Part shown: piece after piece, positions 50,072-60,667 of the stretch | Layout of the letters: each line of letters opens with the position of its first letter | Numbering within the stretch: the stretch's first letter is position 1 | Source: Natronospira proteinivora | GTDB taxonomy: Bacteria > Pseudomonadota > Gammaproteobacteria > Natronospirales > Natronospiraceae | DNA: 64,000 bases | NCBI RefSeq assembly: GCF_024170465.1 | Contig: NZ_JALJYF010000002.1 | Location: 930,001-994,000, forward strand | Direction: 5' to 3' | The notes under the pieces: model-generated | What the model was told of the DNA's origin: nothing | Databases searched by the model: none | What the model saw: the letters and a program-made list of their open reading frames with translations, nothing else | Position numbers and translations under genes: made by a program

Positions 50072-50827
50072 ATGGCCATCAAAATCGAAAAACCCATCGT
50101 CTCCTACGGCATCAAAAAGCCCGAAGACGAAGAAACCAAAGAACAACGCGAACAAGCCAAGAGCGACAAAGCGGAACTCACCGAATTCCGCCGCGAAGGC
50201 AACGTCGTCCACATGACCGAAACCCTCGAGCGCCCGGAAGAACTCATCGGCTCCACCTACAAGGTCAAGCCCCCGGTCGCCGACCACGCCATGTACATCA
50301 CCATCAACGACATCATGCTCAACGAAGGCACGGACCAGGAAATCCGCCGCCCCTTCGAAATCTTCATCAACTCCAAAAACCTGGACCACTACCAGTGGAT
50401 CGTGGCCCTGACCCGGGTCATCTCCGCGGTCTTCCGTAAAGGCGGCGACGTCACCTTCCTGGTAGAAGAGCTCCAGGCAGTCTTCGACCCCAGAGGCGGC
50501 TACTGGAAGCCCGGCGGCAAATTCATGCCCTCCCTCATCGCCGAAATCGGCGAGGTCATCGAAAAGCATCTGACCAAAATCGGGATGATCCAGTCCCCCG
50601 AACTGGACGAACACCAGAAAAAGCTCGTGGAACAAAAACGCGCCGAATACGAAGCCGCCCAAAAACAAAAAGACGCCTTCGCCAAAGACAAAGACGAAGA
50701 CAACAACTCAGACAACGGCGGCTTCCCCGCCGGCGCCCAACTCTGCACCAAGTGCAATACCGCGGCGGTGGTGATGATGGATGGGTGTCTTACGTGTCTT
50801 TCCTGTGGCGACTCTAAGTGCGGCTAG
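50072..50827 (+). CDS. Ribonucleotide reductase NrdJb (TSCPD domain subunit)
   Basis: 251 residues. The TSCPD-type domain covers RPEELIGSTYKVKPP to EVIEKHLTKIG. A charged Lys/Glu linker then leads to the C-terminus CTKCNTAAVVMMDGCLTCLSCGDSKCG, with three CxxC pairs that form the zinc site and redox-active thiols needed to re-reduce the catalytic subunit. GAGGAAAG precedes the ATG. It is separated from nrdJa by 146 bases including two REP elements. Confidence 0.93.
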   Translation: MAIKIEKPIVSYGIKKPEDEETKEQREQAKSDKAELTEFRREGNVVHMTETLERPEELIGSTYKVKPPVADHAMYITINDIMLNEGTDQEIRRPFEIFINSKNLDHYQWIVALTRVISAVFRKGGDVTFLVEELQAVFDPRGGYWKPGGKFMPSLIAEIGEVIEKHLTKIGMIQSPELDEHQKKLVEQKRAEYEAAQKQKDAFAKDKDEDNNSDNGGFPAGAQLCTKCNTAAVVMMDGCLTCLSCGDSKCG

Positions 50828-50984
50828 CGCTTCGCCAGAACCACTATAACGGCGTTAAAAGGCCCATCGCGAATGCTCATACCTTCTTGGTAACTCCGCT
50901 TCGTGACGGGCCCCTTTTGCCTTGTTCTCGCGGCCCTGGCTGTGCGCTGATGGGGTGTAGCCCAGTGGGAGATACCTCGCAGAT

Positions 50985-52052
50985 ATGAAGCGACTAAGCA
51001 AGAAGGGGCGATACAGACATAACAACTATGTCGAGCGGAAATGGAGTCGCGTACTAAGGCGCCGGAAGAGAGCCTTGCCGAAATTAAATCTCACACCTGT
51101 TGTCGTCACCCCCAACGAACTTTGTCTATACTCTAAAAGTAGCTACGAGATCTTGGTTGTCTTCCTTCGTGATATTTCCGTAGTAGTTAGTGATCGACCT
51201 AGAAGGCTGATAATCGATTTTCGGAATACGCGTAGGGTTACAGCCGCGGCTCTTCTGCGTGTCAGAGCGGAGGTGACAAGACTGTCTATTGAGTATGGGC
51301 GTGATGTCAGGATCATAATGCTCAAGCCGAGAGATGCTGAGTTGCGGGATAGGCTTTCCCATGCGAACCTGTTTGTAACAGGCACAATTAATCAACAACC
51401 TAATGATAGGGCTGATTCGCCGGCGGATTTAATTCCCTGTTTCACGGGTATTCATTCAGACGAACATTTGGAGGAGCTTTTAGATCTAATAGCAGAGCGC
51501 CTCTACCTCGGGTCAATCAAGCAGGATGAAGAGCTTAAACTCTATCGTTCATTAACCGAGGCTATGCTGAATGTCTGGCAGCACGCTTATGGTCTGGAGG
51601 GCGTGATTCAGGGGGGCGGTAGAAGTTTAGGTCGAAGGTGGTGGCTTTTTGGTGAGCGTATAGATAATCAATTGTTTTTGGCTATCTATGACCGCGGTGT
51701 TGGTATCCCGGTGACCCTCCCTAAGAAGTATGGGTGGGAGTCGATCTACTCTGTGATGGATTCGTTAGGGCTAAAAGGGAATCATGATACAAACATGATA
51801 AGAGCGGCCATTGAGTTAGGGAGAACTTCGCGCAAAAGTGGTCGTGGAGGTAAAGGGCTTAGAGATGTTCATCGTTATGTGGAAGAAAACCCAGTTGGCG
51901 ATTTGCGGATATATAGCAATCGCGGTGAATACCGCTACCGATCTTCGAGCGGAGTGTCAAGATCCATTGTGCATAAGCGAAGTCTAATTGGTACTCTGAT
52001 CCAATGGAATATTGCTGTTCCTCAAGGCAGGAAGGTCGATGAAGTCAACTAA
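50985..52052 (+). CDS. STAS-like plus GHKL ATPase protein
   Basis: 355 residues. A basic N-terminus (~1-35), then an alpha/beta part resembling a STAS domain (RRLIIDFRNTRRVTAAALLRVRAEV, VRIIMLKP), then a GHKL/HATPase_c domain: N box LTEAMLNVWQHAY (Glu192, Asn196), G1 box YDRGVGIP (Asp236) and G2 box GRGGKGLRDV. Looks like an anti-sigma-factor-type kinase. No transmembrane helix. GC is clearly below that of the upstream nrd genes. The next gene overlaps by 14 bases. Weak ribosome-binding site. Confidence 0.75.
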   Translation: MKRLSKKGRYRHNNYVERKWSRVLRRRKRALPKLNLTPVVVTPNELCLYSKSSYEILVVFLRDISVVVSDRPRRLIIDFRNTRRVTAAALLRVRAEVTRLSIEYGRDVRIIMLKPRDAELRDRLSHANLFVTGTINQQPNDRADSPADLIPCFTGIHSDEHLEELLDLIAERLYLGSIKQDEELKLYRSLTEAMLNVWQHAYGLEGVIQGGGRSLGRRWWLFGERIDNQLFLAIYDRGVGIPVTLPKKYGWESIYSVMDSLGLKGNHDTNMIRAAIELGRTSRKSGRGGKGLRDVHRYVEENPVGDLRIYSNRGEYRYRSSSGVSRSIVHKRSLIGTLIQWNIAVPQGRKVDEVN

Positions 52053-52368
52053 GATAATTATATCTAAGGAATTCAGTGTAATCCCGTTGGGTCGCTATCT
52101 TACGGATGGCCCAAATAGTGGGGAGCGTTTTCGAAAGGACTACCTTGTTCCGGCATTGAGGGATTATGAGTGCGTTGAGGTGGACTTGGATGGGACAAGG
52201 GGGTATGGATCGTCTTTTTTGGATGAGGCTTTTGGCGGTTTGGTTAGAGATGAGGGGATTGAGAAGGGTGAGTTGAAGAAAAAACTCCGAATAAAGACAC
52301 AGTTTGAGAGTCTGATAAAAGAAATAATGGGTTATATTGAAGAAAGCGAGTATAAGCAAAATGAATAG
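52039..52368 (+). CDS. STAS-like DUF4325 protein
   Basis: 109 residues; AGGAAGG precedes the ATG (MKSTKIIIS). The pattern IPLGRYLTDGPNSGERFRKDYLVPAL, VEVDLDGTRGYGSSFLDEAFGGLVR is the DUF4325 signature; these proteins are related to anti-sigma-factor antagonists. It follows an ATPase gene in many genomes. Translationally coupled to the ATPase gene by a 14-base overlap, so the two probably interact as kinase and phospho-target or partner. Confidence 0.8.
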   Translation: MKSTKIIISKEFSVIPLGRYLTDGPNSGERFRKDYLVPALRDYECVEVDLDGTRGYGSSFLDEAFGGLVRDEGIEKGELKKKLRIKTQFESLIKEIMGYIEESEYKQNE

Positions 52369-52386
52369 TCGGGAGAGGGTGGTTTA

Positions 52387-52884
52387 ATGCTCTTGGTTGT
52401 TGTAAATGCCCTGATTATTGCTATCGGCTGGTATGTGATTTACTCAAATGCTAAGCGATTAGCTACTCGATCCGAGAACCGCGGCATTATAGATGGAGCC
52501 CATTCTGTTCTAGATGAACTATCTCGGACATCAAAAACATTTTGGAAAGAAAAAATCACTAACCAGGGAGACTCGCAAATGAGAGCCGGGTTAGTTGAGC
52601 TTCAGAGTCTAATACAAGAATTCGAGCTAAAAACGAATTTGCTTGGCAAGCGGGGGCTTGAGGTTGATGTTGCTGTATCTATCAAAGAGCTTCGCAACTC
52701 GGTTACTGCAAATGCGGAATTGCTTGAGGTGACAAATATCGATCGCATTTCTGCGCGCTTGGCAAATATTGGCAACAAGGTTGGCGATATAAAGTGGAAT
52801 TTAGAAGAGGCGTTTATGGGGACCTATAAGCCTAGTCGAACTGCATTACAGTTTTTAAACGATCGACGGAAGAAGGACGGTTAG
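52387..52884 (+). CDS. Single-pass membrane protein of the STAS/ATPase operon
   Basis: 165 residues; GGGAGAGGGTGG precedes the ATG. One N-terminal helix (MLLVVVNALIIAIGWYVIYS), then a soluble, mostly helical part. Lies 18 bases after the DUF4325 gene. Not recognised. It could anchor or receive the signal of the two preceding proteins. Confidence 0.72.
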   Translation: MLLVVVNALIIAIGWYVIYSNAKRLATRSENRGIIDGAHSVLDELSRTSKTFWKEKITNQGDSQMRAGLVELQSLIQEFELKTNLLGKRGLEVDVAVSIKELRNSVTANAELLEVTNIDRISARLANIGNKVGDIKWNLEEAFMGTYKPSRTALQFLNDRRKKDG

Positions 52885-52968
52885 CGTCGATATTAAGCAG
52901 GAAGGGGTGTTCATTGCCATAGATAGTGAATTTTGTGGAGTGCTGGGTATCGATCAATCAGGACAAAG

Positions 52969-53272
52969 ACACCCACCTTCCTAACTAGCTCTCATTCGGT
53001 TCTAGTTGGGTAATTGCCGTCTCAGAACGGCCAGATCAGCTCGCAGGGCTGCTGATCGCCGTCCCCAATGTCGAATTCTCGTCTCAATGGTACGTTCTGG
53101 GCTTAACTCGCGCGGGGGCGAGCCCCCTTTGGTGGCAGGGTGTGAGGCTTTGAGGGTTGTAGGCGCTTGGTCGGCTAGCTGGGTTCCGGGAAGAGTGTTC
53201 TTGCGAAGCCCAGGCCCTTGAGGAATGACCTTCTGAACTGATTCGCAGCACGAAGACACCGACCTCCCTAAC
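52969..53272. repeat. Direct-repeat-bounded intergenic element
   Basis: GACACCCACCTTCCTAAC (52969-52986) and GACACCGACCTCCCTAAC (53255-53272) bound a ~270-base non-coding stretch that differs in composition (more GC) from the genes on either side. Short ORFs inside on both strands have no credible start sites. Further copies of the core occur at 54060 and 54120. Confidence 0.55.
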
Positions 53273-53339
53273 CTCGTGTCAGGATTTAGGTCCATGTTCT
53301 TCCTGTTTCATCGAACAAATTAAAGGGAGTTCGGCGAGC

Positions 53340-54047
53340 ATGATAAATTTCGATGAGGAAGCTATGGTGAAGGTGAAGGCACTTTTGAGTCGGAAGATGC
53401 ACTCAGAGGTGTTCGCTAAAAGGTTAAGGGATTTTATTGGGGTAAAGTGTATTCTTGTATCTTTAGCTTTTGTTATCACTATTGTTATAGTCGTATTTTT
53501 TCGCGATGATCCCAACGCATTTGCTTTAGCATATTTGCTGTTATTTTCATTTTCAATTATCGTCATTTCTTCGCACCATCTATGGAAAGTAGTAGTAAGC
53601 GCTTTTAGGCGAAGCAGTAAGCTGTCTAAAGAATGGGGCTCGGTAATTGCTGGTGATGTCGGAAAACTATTCATCCTCCAATACAAGTGCGTCCTCGAAT
53701 GGGCTGAAGCGGAGTTGTTCGATGAGAACAAAAGGCTATTAGGGGAAACGCGTTTGATAGGTAAGTACATTGATAGGCTTCGCGGCGTCGTCCGTTTGCG
53801 CCGTAATCTTTTATTCGGCATTGCTTCATTTTCCCTTCTTCTAAGTACCGTTCTAGCTTCAGATTTTGGTGCTATTAATGCTGATGAAATGTCGTCTGTC
53901 GACGTTTTGAGGTGGATCCTAGCTTCCTCTCTTCTAATTGCGACCCTAGTCGCAAATTTTATGGCGATAGGTTTGTATCATGCGGAGGAGCGACTGGAGG
54001 CGGCTTCATTTCTTATCGATGAACTAGTCGATGAATTGAAGGCCTAG
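53340..54047 (+). CDS. Four-helix membrane protein of unknown function
   Basis: 235 residues; GGGAG lies about ten bases before the ATG. Hydrophobic segments ILVSLAFVITIVIVVFF, AYLLLFSFSIIVISS, GIASFSLLLSTVLAS and WILASSLLIATLVANFMAI form two helical hairpins separated by a ~90-residue cytoplasmic part rich in charged residues. Low GC compared with neighbours. Not recognised. Bracketed by copies of a short GACACCCACC repeat on both sides. Confidence 0.72.
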   Translation: MINFDEEAMVKVKALLSRKMHSEVFAKRLRDFIGVKCILVSLAFVITIVIVVFFRDDPNAFALAYLLLFSFSIIVISSHHLWKVVVSAFRRSSKLSKEWGSVIAGDVGKLFILQYKCVLEWAEAELFDENKRLLGETRLIGKYIDRLRGVVRLRRNLLFGIASFSLLLSTVLASDFGAINADEMSSVDVLRWILASSLLIATLVANFMAIGLYHAEERLEAASFLIDELVDELKA

Positions 54048-54059
54048 TAGAAGAACGAA

Positions 54060-54137
54060 GACACCCAGCGCGCCGGGATAAGCCGGCAAGAGATTGGAGG
54101 TGAATCACGGTAGCTTCTGGACACCCACCACCCTACA
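54060..54137. repeat. Two further copies of the GACACCCACC repeat
   Basis: GACACCCAGCGCGCC at 54060 and GACACCCACCACCCTACA at 54120-54137 share their first eight to ten bases with the pair at 52969 and 53255. All four are in the same orientation and outside genes. Confidence 0.4.
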
Positions 54138-54315
54138 AATGGCCAGCATCAAAAGTAGGCTGGTTGTCTGCCAACGGCGGTGCTGTTTCGGCGGCTTGAA
54201 GCCCAAACCCTGTCTCTGAGCCGTTCCCGCCTTCTCCCGCGAAATTCTCTGCTACGCTTAAGTGTCTGGTAGGGAGGAAATTGTCCTTCTATCACATGGA
54301 CTTGGAGAAGTGGTG

Positions 54316-55773
54316 ATGGCGAATGGAAGCATCCTGGATAAGCTCCAGACGGGTGAGCGTGCGCGGCTGATACCCGTTGGGAGTGATCGGCAGAAGGAAT
54401 CCCGGGCTATTTCGGCGTTGTTGGCAGTTTTCCGCCTGATTCCTGATTACGCTAATCTAATGCTCGACGAGGTCGGGGCGCCTACCAACAAGCGCGCCAA
54501 GCTGAGTGCCTGGACAGAGACTACCTTCAAGGTCCTCGGCAAGAAGCCGGCCCAGCTGCCTCGCCCTGACGGGCTCCTGGTGGTCCACAGCGGCAAGAAA
54601 GAGTGGTCGGCGCTGGTTGAGGCCAAGGTGAAGAACGAGGAGATTTCCGCCGATCAGATTGAGCGGTATCTCGATCTAGCCCGCGAAGTGGGCGCAGACG
54701 CGGTCATCACCATTTCCAACCAGTTTGCCCTCTTGCCGAATCATCACCCCGTCAGAGTGAATCGACAGAAGACCCGTTCGGTCTCCCTGTACCATTTCTC
54801 CTGGCTCGCCCTTCAAAGCAATGCCCAGGTCTTGTCAGATTCGGACACGCTCGAAGATGAAGAGCAGGCCTTGGTGCTTAAGGAGCTGATCCGTTTCCTC
54901 GAGCACGATAATTCGGGTGTTAAATCCTATGATCGGATGGGGCCAGCCTGGAAGGAGCTTTGCGCGACGGTTCAGCGCGGCGCCCCTTTACGGAAAAATG
55001 ACGAAGCGCTACAGGAGGCCGTGGCGGATTGGCACCAGCTTTGCCGCTACCTCGCGCTGAAGCTCAGCAGCCGCCTGGCCAAGCCGGTATCTGTTCATGT
55101 ACGCCGCAAGCACGCCAAGGATCCCCTCAAACGGCTTGAGCATGATATTGAGCGCTTGGTGAAGGACCAGATCCTGGCTGACCAGTTCGAGATCCCGAAT
55201 GCGGCCAGCAATGTTCACCTATCGGCAGATGTCATGCGCCGCACCATCAACCTCTCCATGCCTCTGGACCCACCCAAGGATAAGAAGCGCCCGACGGCCG
55301 CCGTGAATTGGCTAACCCGCCAGCTCGATCCAGAAACGGCGAAAGGCGTATTGATCCGATGCACTTGGCCACGCCGCACCCCCGACACAGTTCAACCACT
55401 CGAGGCCGCCCTCGAAGACCCGAAAGTATTGATCCCGGAGGGTATGTCCGATCTCCCGACTGGCCTAGAAGTGATGCGAGTGGTCGACCTTGCGGGCCGA
55501 TTCCGTGGAGCCCGCACCCTCGTTGAGGACATCGAAAAAGCCTTCCCCTCCTTCTACCGCGACATAGGACAACACCTCCGCGCGTGGACACCGCCGCCGC
55601 CGAAATACCGAAAAAAGTCGAAGCCGGTATCCGATCAAGAGGAGCGTTTGGCAGAGCGCGAAGCTGCTTTGGCGGAACGCAAGGAAGAGCCAAGCGAAGC
55701 TGATGTCAGCTCCGCGACCGATTTTGTTACAAGCCCCGATCAGGTAGATGACCGAGGAAACTGGAACCCGTAG
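54316..55773 (+). CDS. PD-(D/E)xK nuclease-like protein of unknown function
   Basis: 485 residues from the ATG (MANGSILDKL) preceded by GGAG; the frame is open from 54262. The N-terminal half carries RPDGLLVV (Asp85), LVEAKV (Glu102, Lys104) and DQIERY (Gln114), matching the D...ExK...Q arrangement of restriction-like nucleases of the family that recognises DNA ends or modified DNA. The C-terminal half contains beta-rich segments and a helical tail with repeated KxxE/R charged residues. No helicase or methylase neighbour in the same direction. Could be a defence nuclease, a stress-response protein or unrelated with a chance motif. Confidence 0.68.
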   Translation: MANGSILDKLQTGERARLIPVGSDRQKESRAISALLAVFRLIPDYANLMLDEVGAPTNKRAKLSAWTETTFKVLGKKPAQLPRPDGLLVVHSGKKEWSALVEAKVKNEEISADQIERYLDLAREVGADAVITISNQFALLPNHHPVRVNRQKTRSVSLYHFSWLALQSNAQVLSDSDTLEDEEQALVLKELIRFLEHDNSGVKSYDRMGPAWKELCATVQRGAPLRKNDEALQEAVADWHQLCRYLALKLSSRLAKPVSVHVRRKHAKDPLKRLEHDIERLVKDQILADQFEIPNAASNVHLSADVMRRTINLSMPLDPPKDKKRPTAAVNWLTRQLDPETAKGVLIRCTWPRRTPDTVQPLEAALEDPKVLIPEGMSDLPTGLEVMRVVDLAGRFRGARTLVEDIEKAFPSFYRDIGQHLRAWTPPPPKYRKKSKPVSDQEERLAEREAALAERKEEPSEADVSSATDFVTSPDQVDDRGNWNP

Positions 55774-56638: not shown

Positions 56639-59600
56639 TTAATCCGCAGTTAAGCGTCTCGAAATCCGCAGGATCCTGGCAGGAATTTCATACTCCATCC
56701 GCCAGATGAAGTTGATCGGCCGGCTGCCTCCATGGGATTGGTATTCCACCGGCCCCAGGAATGCATAGGGCAGGGTGTAATCACCTTTCTTTGCTACTTC
56801 CCGGGCAAACATCAGCGGTGTGTAGCCTTTCTCAGCGTGATGGATGTAGCGTTTCCCGGTGGGGGAAGTGTCCGAGGTGGTGCTTTGGGATTGCCAGTGG
56901 AAATGCCAGGCGTCCAGGGCGTAGTCCTCGTACATGGTGGTTGGGCTGTAGTGTTTCTCGGATTTTTGTAGGGTCGTGAGGAACAGGTCTAGTTTCTGAT
57001 CTGGTATGTGTTTGACCCCCTCCTGCATCATGACTTTCTTCCCCCAGCCTTGAACGCCTGTTAGCGCGAGGATTTCGTCTCGGGTGTAGTGGGCGTGGAG
57101 GATCAGGGGGAGCTTGGCGGTTTCTTCTGGCCGTGTTTGTCGGCCTGCGCCCGGTTGTTGGCGGGGCCAGGCGACGAGGTCGCGGGCTTCGCGGTGGAGT
57201 TCGGGGTTGGCCTGGAGTAGTTGCCAGGCATCTTGTCCCGATTCGATGTTGCTGTCCTTGCCCAGGAGCGCGACGCAGAGCGCTAGGACTAGTGGGTCGT
57301 CGCCCTGGCCGGTTTCCAGCCATTGGGCCCAGCGGTCCAGGCGCAGGGCGTCGTCGGCGTGGGTGAGGCGTCGGAGCCAGCGGCTCAGGCGCTGCTCGTC
57401 TGGACAGGAGAAATCCTCCCGCAGGCCGGCGCGGGCCAGTAGCCGTGACCAGCTCGCGCGACGATAGATATCGTCAGGATTCAGTCGATGGTGCTGGAGG
57501 AAGGCGCCAAAGCTGAGGGGGCGGCCGGTCTCAGCTTCGAAATCGGCAATGTCTCGCACCAGTTGCGGTTGTCCGGCCAGGACCGAGCGGCGGATGTTGT
57601 GCAGTACGCGCTCACGGGCCTTGCGTTCCAGTTCAATCGCGCAGCCAGCGGGGAGGTGGGGGAAGTCTCGCTCCACTTCTTCCTTGAGGTTGGCATCCGG
57701 GTCCGTGGAGAGCGCGCGAAGGCGATGGTCGAAGCGGAATTTCTCGTGCATCTGCCCGACGAAATCCAGCACCGTCAGATAATCCTTGTCGTAGGTCAGT
57801 CGCAGGCCGCGGCCGAGTTGCTGCAGGAAGACGGTGAGGCTTTCCGTGGGGCGCAGGAAGAGCACGGTGTCCACATCGGGAATATCCACCCCTTCGTTAT
57901 AGAGGTCGACGACGAAGATGAAATTGATGTCCCGGCGGCGTAGGCGGTCTCGCACCTGATCCCGTTCGGCGCGGGAGGTTTCACCGCTGAGGTGGGCGCT
58001 GGGGATGCCAGATTGATTGAAGAAATCAGCCATGAAGCGGGCATGCTCGACGCTGACACAGAAGGCCAGGCCCCGCGCTTGGTGCACATCGGGTAGGCGT
58101 CGATGACATTGCTCGACCACCAGGCTGGCTCGCACTCGGTCGCCGGTGATCAGCTTGTCAATCTCGGCGACGCGGTAGCCGCCTCGCTCCCAGTGCACAT
58201 GGCGGTAATCGATGTTATCTGCCAGCCCATAGTAGTGAAACGGCACCACCAGGCGGCGATTGATGGCATCGGGCAGGCGCATCTCGGAGACGATGCGGTC
58301 GCCGAAATAGGCCAGAATGTCCTCGCCATCGGCGCGTTCCGGTGTCGCGGTCAGGCCTAGCAGGATATTGGGTTCCAGACGGTCGAGCACACCTTGGTAG
58401 GATTCAGCAGCGGACCGGTGGGTCTCGTCGATGACGACATATTCATAGGGCTCGCGGGCCGCTTCGGCGAGCCAGTCCCGGCGGTGGAGGGCCTGGATGG
58501 TGGCGAATAAGTGGTTGGTCTGGCTCGGCTTAGCGCTTGCATCCAGCAGGTCACCAAAATTCTGATCTCGTAGCACCGCCCTAAAGCTGTTCAGGCTTTG
58601 TTGCAGGATCTCGCGCCGGTGCGCGACAAACAGCAGGCGAGGGTAACGCCCGCCATATTCCCGAACCTGCCGCCGGTAATCGAAGGCGGCCAGCATGGTC
58701 TTGCCAGTCCCCGTGGCAGCCACCACCAGTTGGCGGTGGGGCGCCTCTCTGTCTTCGCGGTCCGCGGCCAGGGCTTCCAGGATCTCCTGCTGGAACTGGA
58801 AGGGCCGCAAGTCAAAGGCCGGCACAATTGCCTGTTGTTCCCTCGGTCGGCGTTGATCGGCAAGGGCCTCCCGCAGCTTATCGGCGTCAAAGGCCTCGAA
58901 CTCCGGATCTTCCCAGTAGCTTTGAAAAGTGCCGAGGACCTTTTCCCAGATGGCCGGGTCGGCATACTGGGTTGCCTTTAGTGTCCATTCCAGGCCTTCC
59001 GTCAGCGCTGGCCGGGAGAGATTGGCTGATCCGACATAGGCACTACTGAATCCCGTCTGGCGTTCAAATAGATAAGCCTTGGCGTGTAGGCGAGTCCGGT
59101 GGCTGTCATAGGAGACCCGCACCTGGGCATTCGGCAAACGTGCCAGGGCTTCCACGGCGGCCAAGTCGGTTGCCCCCATATAACTGGTGGTCAAAGCCCG
59201 GAGTTCCGTTCCCTCGCGTTGAGCAAACCGCTCCAGCGCGTCCTGCAACAGACCTACCCCGCTCCACTTGATAAAGGAGCAGAGAATATCCACCCGATCC
59301 GCCGTGGCCAGCTCCCGCTTGAGTTGAGACAGCAGGCTGGGGTCTGATCGGGTACCGGTCAGCAGGCTCGACATCGAAGCGGGGGTGTCCGGCCGTGGCG
59401 GGGGCTCGGGACCATCATAAACGGCCAGCAACCGTTCCATCGCTGGTCCCAGTTGCTTTCCGGTCGTCCCCAGCTTGGCGTCAAACTCCCCCAGCACCTC
59501 GACAAGGCGATTGAACAGCGCCGCCTGATGCTTCAAGCGACCATCTGCCGGCTGTCGACGAAGGACCGCCGCCACCAGGATCCGAAGGTGATCGGCCAGC

Positions 59601-59713
59601 ACTGAATGACTGTCTGCAGGGTCCAGGCGCTCAGAGGCAAGCTCCGAACTTAGCGTCTCCAGCGACTCCGCCAGGTCCTGGTCGATGATCCGTTCGTAAA
59701 GTCCCTTACGCAT
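56639..59713 (-). CDS. PLD-like nuclease fused to superfamily 2 helicase with DUF3427 C-terminus
   Basis: 1024 residues from MRKGLYERIIDQD. Order: N-terminal helical region; phospholipase-D-like domain with the single HxK motif RLHAKAYLF (residues ~208-216) and GSANLS; superfamily 2 helicase with AATGTGKT (332-339), DETH (429-432), LTATPER, and QLGRGLR; then an alpha region with HNIRRSVL; C-terminal DUF3427 domain (LHAHYTRDEILALTGV ... IPARILRI). Related proteins occur in bacterial defence islands, but the exact mechanism is unknown. A longer reading of 19 codons lacks the usual start. GC-rich, unlike the neighbouring genes. Confidence 0.88.
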   Translation of the reverse strand: MRKGLYERIIDQDLAESLETLSSELASERLDPADSHSVLADHLRILVAAVLRRQPADGRLKHQAALFNRLVEVLGEFDAKLGTTGKQLGPAMERLLAVYDGPEPPPRPDTPASMSSLLTGTRSDPSLLSQLKRELATADRVDILCSFIKWSGVGLLQDALERFAQREGTELRALTTSYMGATDLAAVEALARLPNAQVRVSYDSHRTRLHAKAYLFERQTGFSSAYVGSANLSRPALTEGLEWTLKATQYADPAIWEKVLGTFQSYWEDPEFEAFDADKLREALADQRRPREQQAIVPAFDLRPFQFQQEILEALAADREDREAPHRQLVVAATGTGKTMLAAFDYRRQVREYGGRYPRLLFVAHRREILQQSLNSFRAVLRDQNFGDLLDASAKPSQTNHLFATIQALHRRDWLAEAAREPYEYVVIDETHRSAAESYQGVLDRLEPNILLGLTATPERADGEDILAYFGDRIVSEMRLPDAINRRLVVPFHYYGLADNIDYRHVHWERGGYRVAEIDKLITGDRVRASLVVEQCHRRLPDVHQARGLAFCVSVEHARFMADFFNQSGIPSAHLSGETSRAERDQVRDRLRRRDINFIFVVDLYNEGVDIPDVDTVLFLRPTESLTVFLQQLGRGLRLTYDKDYLTVLDFVGQMHEKFRFDHRLRALSTDPDANLKEEVERDFPHLPAGCAIELERKARERVLHNIRRSVLAGQPQLVRDIADFEAETGRPLSFGAFLQHHRLNPDDIYRRASWSRLLARAGLREDFSCPDEQRLSRWLRRLTHADDALRLDRWAQWLETGQGDDPLVLALCVALLGKDSNIESGQDAWQLLQANPELHREARDLVAWPRQQPGAGRQTRPEETAKLPLILHAHYTRDEILALTGVQGWGKKVMMQEGVKHIPDQKLDLFLTTLQKSEKHYSPTTMYEDYALDAWHFHWQSQSTTSDTSPTGKRYIHHAEKGYTPLMFAREVAKKGDYTLPYAFLGPVEYQSHGGSRPINFIWRMEYEIPARILRISRRLTAD

Positions 59714-59851
59714 GAATGGAACATACCAGGGAATTCCAATCGCACCTAGACGGCCCAAGAAACAGCGCAAAAACAGATGGTTAGAGGGCGGTTGTGTTCC
59801 TCTGGGTCCTGGCGAATCGAGGTGGTCGCTGATCAGACAAGTGCGGGGGGC

Positions 59852-59989: not shown

Positions 59990-60667
59990 ATGAAGACTGC
60001 GATCCTGATTGATGGCGCTTACTTTGTTAAGCGCTATCGTGCCCTCTACCCCGAGAAGCATGACGAACCAATCGAAGACACCGTTTCGAATCTTTATGCC
60101 GGTGCAATAAACCTACTTCGAAAAGCGAACCGGCCGCCACGATCTCGTGAGCTGTATAGAATCTTCTTTTACGACTGCCCTCCCCTAGCGAAGTATATCC
60201 ATAATCCAGTATCACAACGCGGGGAACGGTTAGCAGAATCTCGCGAGGCAATCTTTCGTCATTCTTTGCATGAGCAATTAAAACGTCAGCGAAAAGTCGC
60301 ATTACGTCTCGGTCGGTTGGATGAGAACAATGCCCGCTGGGAGTTGAAAGGAGACCTGCTGAAGAAACTTCTTCGCGGCACATTGGAGGTCAAGGACATC
60401 CAGCCTACCGATGTCTTCTATCACGCAAGACAGAAAGGCGTGGATATGAAGATTGCCTCCGACATTGCCTCGTTGGCACATGGTGGTCATGTCGACCAAA
60501 TTATATTGGTGGCAGGCGACAGTGATTTTGTACCTGCCGCGAAGCTCGCTCGTAGAAATGGCATCGATTTCGTTTTAGATCCAATGTGGAATCATATTAA
60601 TCCGGACCTATTCGAGCACATTGATGGCCTATGCGGAGGCTGGAAAAATCCGAGAAATTCCACATAG
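59990..60667 (+). CDS. NYN-domain protein (putative PIN-like ribonuclease)
   Basis: 225 residues. AILIDGAYF (Asp8) opens a PIN/NYN nuclease fold; KGVDMKIASDIASLA (Asp152, Asp158) and VAGDSDFVPAAKLAR (Asp177, Asp179) complete the acidic metal cluster. NYN proteins cleave RNA and some act in toxin or surveillance systems. An insertion (residues ~55-140) between the first and second motifs is longer than in the smallest NYN proteins. GAAAGGG precedes the ATG. Preceded directly by a structured RNA element. Lower GC than the helicase gene next to it. Confidence 0.88.
   Translation: MKTAILIDGAYFVKRYRALYPEKHDEPIEDTVSNLYAGAINLLRKANRPPRSRELYRIFFYDCPPLAKYIHNPVSQRGERLAESREAIFRHSLHEQLKRQRKVALRLGRLDENNARWELKGDLLKKLLRGTLEVKDIQPTDVFYHARQKGVDMKIASDIASLAHGGHVDQIILVAGDSDFVPAAKLARRNGIDFVLDPMWNHINPDLFEHIDGLCGGWKNPRNST

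Follow-up and report, generated by a model that had tools for sequence, protein, structure and literature searches.

Kinase–STAS pairs in bacterial immunity

Two described systems come closest to the locus treated here. In CapK/CapS, ssDNA activates a STAS-GHKL kinase, which then phosphorylates a repressor of immune operons built of STAS and wHTH domains (Chambers et al. 2026, PMC13373217). In VapKSC, the proposal is that a CapK-related kinase phosphorylates a STAS antitoxin, freeing a PIN toxin; the system protects by about 2 logs against one phage (PMC13373217). Aromatic residues that stack on the ssDNA lie between the STAS and GHKL domains of both kinases—W68 in CapK and F54 in VapK (PMC13373217). 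A term search of the same paper returned neither "DUF4325" nor "transmembrane protein".

The locus—hereafter the trio—lies in the window, that is, the 64,000-nucleotide stretch of Natronospira proteinivora DNA that was analysed. It encodes a putative serine kinase, a DUF4325 STAS-like protein, and a one-helix membrane protein in this order (Table 1). A first-pass annotation had described it as a compact operon of an ATPase, a DUF4325 gene, and a membrane protein gene: the reading frames proved exact to the base, gene 2 starting at an ATG, and the 14-base overlap between genes 1 and 2, the 18-base gap after the DUF4325 stop, and the low GC content (0.45 at 52–54 kb versus about 0.60 for the window) were all borne out. 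That annotation also held that novelty would fall if the pair of the first two genes had already been described. By this measure it does fall, since close relatives of the pair, CapK/CapS and VapKSC, now are (PMC13373217); what is new here is the membrane third component and the distinct kinase clade. Among the main texts of openly accessible papers, none was found that describes the trio itself.

Table 1. Features of the trio and of the variable segment that holds it (window coordinates)
Feature	Position	Strand	Basis
Gene 1, putative serine kinase, 355 aa; basic N-terminal helix, STAS-like and GHKL parts	50985..52052	+	ORF, phrog_3364, AlphaFold2 model, SpoIIAB fold
Basic N-terminal extension of the kinase, residues 1–38 (helix 6–30)	50985..51098	+	AlphaFold2 model
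STAS-like domain of the kinase, residues ~39–130	51099..51374	+	Secondary structure of the model; weak sequence matches
GHKL kinase domain, residues ~146–348; N box E192/N196, G1 D236xGxG, G2 G289xG291	51420..52028	+	Invariant residues, fold
Gene 2, DUF4325 STAS-like protein, 109 aa; candidate phosphorylated inhibitor	52039..52368	+	PF14213
Ser59 codon of gene 2; candidate phosphoacceptor	52213..52215	+	Ser in 96/96 distinct relatives
Gene 3, one N-terminal transmembrane helix leading into a cytosolic four-helix bundle, 165 aa; candidate effector	52387..52884	+	AlphaFold2 model, positive-inside rule, conservation
Variable segment with the trio and ORF 53340–54047	50826..54272		Homology break versus same-genus L178

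Conservation and mobility of the trio

Relatives of the kinase became visible to profiles only, a single-sequence search in plasmids and genome contigs having found none. Among class genomes, four more loci came to light, all of them with the kinase, the DUF4325 protein, and the one-helix protein in the same order. The resulting four-kinase profile gave 38 loci in 85,000 species genomes, 7 loci in a phylum sample besides the window (one of them already among the earlier finds), and 62 viral contigs with the kinase. Altogether, 112 kinase loci with 102 distinct kinases were compared; some duplicates occur between the collections, and the locus counts are hence not fully independent. A DUF4325 gene comes next in 108 of the 112 and gene 3 then in 107 of these 108, which answers the doubt raised by the first-pass annotation as to whether the third gene is kept with the pair. 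The exceptions lie at contig ends (L063, L074, and L081) or are broken copies—L045 with a transposase-like ORF and L047 with a truncated kinase. Since all three genes stand side by side in 107 loci, their association is not due to chance. Their distance matrices are also correlated, with a Mantel r of 0.74 for kinase–DUF4325, 0.75 for kinase–gene 3, and 0.67 for DUF4325–gene 3 (p 0.001). The trio is thus confirmed as a real conserved unit. Its hosts comprise Alpha-, Beta-, and Gammaproteobacteria, Nitrospira, desulfobacteria, and a Brachyspira.

The kinase was looked for in 30 genomes, comprising that of the window and its closest relatives (two belonging to the same genus); only the window genome has it. 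Homology to the same-genus genome G658 (L178) stops at 50825, where the conserved gene 50072–50827 ends, and resumes at 54273; in its place, G658 holds about 2.9 kb of unrelated sequence. Because homology breaks on both sides, the trio and ORF 53340–54047 are assigned to one variable segment. The trio is a horizontally moving cassette; of the mobile signaling or defense module suggested at first reading, the mobility and a tie to defense contexts are recovered in its patchy presence and in its prophage, hotspot, and integrase locations.

The kinase

The window kinase by itself matched neither a Pfam family nor, in a PDB sequence search, any chain. Its family is more telling: 36 of 72 relatives scanned match HATPase_c_2, and a PDB profile search with the kinases placed RsbW first (E 0.0018) and SpoIIAB second (0.0055). 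phrog_3364, a family of unknown function, matches the window kinase at E 7e-44 and takes in all 72 kinases scanned. The N, G1, and G2 boxes of the first reading are confirmed by residues that are invariant across the family (E192/N196, D236/G238, and G289/G291), and Y202, W219, G336, and W341 are likewise invariant or nearly so. E192 and N196 represent the catalytic Glu and the Mg-binding Asn of SpoIIAB/RsbW-type kinases.

The AlphaFold2 model of the kinase (pLDDT 84, pTM 0.82) displays the basic helix, an α/β domain, and the GHKL domain. In structural comparison, it comes closest to SpoIIAB (Z 10.8, 2.8 Å over 139 residues) and RsbW (Z 8.5), with CheA, Hsp90, and topoisomerases scoring below both; the resemblance to a kinase/antagonist pair noted at first reading is in line with this fold. 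(For the structure-model alignments, one row from a phage record was left out.) The STAS-like part claimed for the kinase stands as an α/β domain in a confident model, with weak support from sequence: one of the 72 relatives scanned matches STAS (PF01740, E 0.001), and the kinase profile weakly matches STAS chain 4hyl in the PDB (E 0.67). Judged from the order of secondary structure elements and these profile matches, residues 39–130 may be assigned to STAS, albeit weakly. The N-terminal extension measures at least 25 residues in 78 of 102 kinases and has a median net charge of +13. No aromatic residue is invariant in the STAS region of trio kinases, the best being F79 (Phe in 81 of 102).

The DUF4325 protein

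The DUF4325 identity of gene 2 holds (PF14213, E 3.7e-16), the match covering only residues 27–86 of the 109-residue product. A Pfam scan found no wHTH or other DNA-binding domain in this protein. A further conserved region lies at its C terminus (Y108 and I109 in L001 ORF numbering).

Ser59 is a serine in all 96 distinct DUF4325 relatives, and Ser58 just before it in 86 of the 96; together they form the GSSF motif. In the DUF4325 profile, this motif aligned weakly (E 0.46) to 3t6o, an anti-sigma-antagonist-type STAS protein. From this pattern of conservation, Ser59 is the favored candidate for the phosphoacceptor and Ser58 the second choice. PDB sequence matches of DUF4325 were at chance level only and were set aside; the CapS and VapS structures were not among them.

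The membrane protein

A clear hydrophobic helix is present in 95 of 100 distinct gene 3 proteins, in 93 of them near the N terminus. The 15 residues after the helix carry on average 3.8 Lys/Arg versus 0.56 before it, and the positive-inside sense puts the domain inside in 90 proteins versus 4 with the opposite sense. The helical domain is hence predicted to be cytosolic, which would bring it within reach of the DUF4325 protein. The AlphaFold2 model is confident (pLDDT 93, pTM 0.82): helix 2–57 passes from the membrane into a four-helix bundle. Gene 3 is also the fastest-evolving member of the trio, with a mean pairwise identity of 0.16 versus 0.26 and 0.38 for the other two.

Gene 3 matched no Pfam family and gave no significant fold match, and no PIN match was found in the window protein or in 71 relatives scanned. 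Profile matches to lectin, haemagglutinin, and Vpu were rejected as chance matches of coiled-coil and membrane composition, and the fold matches as generic four-helix bundles at noise level. Since the protein bears neither a recognised effector domain nor a significant fold match, toxin, sensor, and anchor roles look alike at this level. Of the first reading—that the output is at the membrane—the membrane link stands, and we infer, with moderate confidence, that gene 3 is an effector and thus output rather than input.

In the converse reading, gene 3 would be a sensor or an anchor: it would tether the kinase or the DUF4325 protein at the membrane and report envelope damage, while DUF4325, phosphorylated or free, would act on a different target. 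Its bundle is indeed built like the sensor domains of chemoreceptors and histidine kinases (LytS, Z 13.6; PcaY, Z 12.6), and sensors in conflict systems can evolve as fast as gene 3 does. Yet, these Z values are noise level for helical bundles, and the positive-inside rule (90 to 4) places the bundle in the cytosol, in contrast to periplasmic sensor domains. Moreover, gene 3 occupies the toxin position of the kinase–STAS–PIN operons described below, the trio DUF4325 protein lacks a DNA-binding domain, and there is no recurrent alternative output gene. A sensor or anchor at the input side is hence unlikely, though it deserves more weight than the other rivals of the effector role.

Comparison with known systems

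PF14213 matches were found in 26 of 299 genomes surveyed. DUF4325 occurs there in several settings: the trio, kinase–STAS–PIN operons, kinase–STAS pairs, and fusions to the kinase. The PIN matches of the operons are clear for L126 (E 7e-9) and L129 (5e-8). In a maximum-likelihood tree of 47 kinases, all 33 trio kinases fall on one side of a branch with support 96/99, and three PIN-type kinases form a separate branch (100/98); one of them, L127, counts as PIN-type by resemblance, without a visible third gene.

In one pair, L144 (genome G364), the kinase and DUF4325 genes are followed by a transposase-like ORF in the place of the third gene. Single-chain fusions are of two types, HTH-GHKL-DUF4325 (L122, L124, and L132) and STAS-GHKL-DUF4325 (L131, L138, L139, and L146), and no description of GHKL-DUF4325 fusions was found in the literature as far as searched. 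The HTH type reads GQAF at the serine position and hence has no serine to phosphorylate. The joining of kinase and DUF4325 in one chain elsewhere is a sign of direct partnership.

VapKSC shares with the trio the STAS-GHKL kinase, a STAS protein of about 110 residues with a C-terminal extension, a third gene, the gene order, and the vicinity of defense genes. The third gene makes the difference—a PIN nuclease there, a one-helix membrane protein here—and for this reason the trio is not VapKSC. VapKSC is also characterised by a STAS-domain Ser/Thr that is absolutely conserved and corresponds to the phosphoserine of SpoIIAA. In addition, the basic N-terminal extension is usual in trio kinases, and the candidate phosphoserine is shifted: the Ser/Thr of PIN-linked DUF4325 proteins aligns with Ser58, one position upstream of the invariant Ser59 of the trio. 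The VapS mechanism may therefore not transfer exactly. All in all, the trio is built like VapKSC and probably works like it.

CapK/CapS likewise pairs a STAS-GHKL kinase with a following STAS partner, and CapK, too, bears an extra N-terminal domain. This domain is an HTH in CapK, whereas the model of the trio kinase shows just one basic helix as its extension; CapS carries a wHTH, whereas the 109-residue DUF4325 protein carries none; and the genes downstream of capKS vary, whereas the third gene of the trio is constant. The SpoIIAB/SpoIIAA and RsbW/RsbV pairs resemble the trio in kinase fold and STAS partner. They differ from it by their sigma factor; in the trio, no cognate sigma factor was found among the neighbors read or scanned, and the extra STAS-like kinase domain and the membrane partner come on top. 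Neither a sigma factor nor a phosphatase was seen among the ORFs scanned or read, as had been noted at first reading.

These likenesses bear on the idea that the trio serves host or lysogeny signaling—by anti-sigma partner switching or by regulation of the CapK/CapS kind—and has nothing to do with phage defense. The kinase does resemble SpoIIAB/RsbW, and CapK/CapS, the closest described pair, does regulate transcription. However, a DUF4325 protein of 109 residues without wHTH, the lack of a recurring sigma factor among the neighbors seen, and a constant third part that is a membrane protein all speak against such a function, and CapK/CapS itself controls immune operons. We regard pure signaling as very improbable.

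Phage and defense contexts

The P2-like gpA–gpQ region is a hotspot of anti-phage systems, old and tin being located there in P2 (PMC9122126). The trio shares this site with old/tin in P2-like prophages: it lies between gpA and gpQ in Escherichia coli D3 (NZ_CP010140.1, 3454640–3456518) and, followed by portal and terminase genes, in about 10 of 48 non-redundant viral contigs. In D3, a replication endonuclease gene comes first, then small genes, the trio, and the portal and terminase genes. The old and tin proteins are not known to be related to those of the trio. More generally, the downstream flanks of the 48 viral loci hold about 10 P2-type portal, 10 terminase, and 10 integrase genes; upstream, the P2 replication nickase is found in 6 of them and a repressor in several. 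A D3-type copy with at least 99% identity is present in 20 of 5426 complete E. coli genomes; a further type in this species adjoins the integrase of other prophages, with full cover in 10 genomes and partial cover in 126.

Other copies lie next to repressor genes. A Pasteurella phage-plasmid carries the trio behind an XRE repressor gene of the same orientation; in Marinobacter phage AS1, the trio and Cro/CI point away from each other, with one small gene ahead of the trio on its own strand. These positions are similar to that of rexAB of phage lambda, which is located after cI. The window copy is chromosomal and not placed between gpA and gpQ; like others, it has no recognised prophage genes alongside. 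In Idiomarinaceae, two copies border on a type I restriction enzyme gene or overlap with it.

The hotspot location is an association only. A term search of the main text of PMC9122126 did not return STAS, GHKL, or HATPase. For the three window proteins, no PADLOC-DB 2.0.0 model matched at E up to 1. PADLOC families number 104 in 131 neighbor genes versus 5 in 98 control genes, a count inflated by redundant HsdS models and set against unmatched control regions; it points in the direction of defense but is no clean measure of enrichment.

Prophages and a phage-plasmid that carry a set of toxin–antitoxin-like architecture might also suggest addiction, that is, a toxin–antitoxin set that stabilizes its element and for which phage resistance is secondary or absent. 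Against this stand the cost of a three-gene kinase relay for mere addiction, the enrichment of anti-phage systems at the gpA–gpQ site (PMC9122126), and the chromosomal copies without adjoining prophage genes—that of the window included—some of which lie by type I restriction genes. Maintenance of the element as the main function hence seems quite improbable.

Proposed mechanism and implications

Some role of the trio against phages or other mobile elements is likely. For the full effector model—a mobile, often phage-carried defense cassette that resembles VapKSC and has a membrane effector—we see a slight preponderance in favor. It builds on the conserved operon, the intact kinase motifs, the invariant serine, the membrane topology, the covariation of the three proteins, the mobility, and the hotspot location, as well as on the occurrence of the same DUF4325 family in kinase–STAS–PIN operons, which is the arrangement of VapKSC, an anti-phage toxin–antitoxin system (PMC13373217). 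At rest, the DUF4325 protein would bind the cytosolic bundle of gene 3 and keep it inactive, in analogy to VapS–VapC. Phage infection would activate the STAS-GHKL kinase; ssDNA as its trigger is speculative, a guess from CapK. The kinase would then phosphorylate the conserved DUF4325 serine, most likely Ser59 in view of its invariance and of the fold. The released gene 3 protein might perturb the inner membrane or block the entry of phage DNA, so that a superinfecting phage fails or growth of the cell stops, in the sense of phage exclusion or abortive infection.

Tentatively, and a little short of an even chance, the trio might represent a new anti-phage system, present in at least four bacterial phyla and in numerous prophages, whose single-helix membrane effectors, an undescribed family, are set free by a phosphorylation relay and not by proteolysis or a second messenger. 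If so, the kinase–STAS trigger, seen so far in gene control (CapKS) and with a PIN toxin (VapKSC), would extend to a membrane effector, and kinase–STAS pairs would, together with these two systems, form a general and swappable trigger for bacterial immunity effectors. It would also provide a function for DUF4325, phrog_3364, and a nameless membrane family. Intact copies of the trio in E. coli prophages make the idea testable in laboratory strains.

Genes in the surroundings

ORF 53340–54047 (+; P0004), which shares the variable segment, was considered as a fourth component and rejected: 455 bases separate it from gene 3, and in the neighborhoods read, none of its homologues was noticed. Its 235-residue product bears several hydrophobic segments and weakly resembles a SLATT model (E 0.037). 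Another gene (54262–55773, +) encodes 503 residues without family matches; a D...ExK pattern seen by eye (DGLLVV...LVEAKVK) suggests a PD-(D/E)xK nuclease, and the gene is retained in G658 at 78% DNA identity (L178 12088–13477). About 4 kb from the trio, 56639–59770 (−) encodes a PLD-nuclease/helicase/DUF3427 protein that matches the PADLOC type IV methyl-directed restriction model (E 2e-213)—perhaps a small defense island. Near the trio, 59990–60667 (+) encodes a protein that is NYN/LabA-like by eye; similar proteins lie directly downstream of the trio in L006 (11923–12723) and L038 (7564–8361), which may be chance. Directly upstream of the trio in L006 (6604–9832), an ATPase, a three-Cys-motif-partner-like protein, and a DUF5131-like protein were recognised by eye, the last of which matches PADLOC PDC-M41B (E 1e-65).
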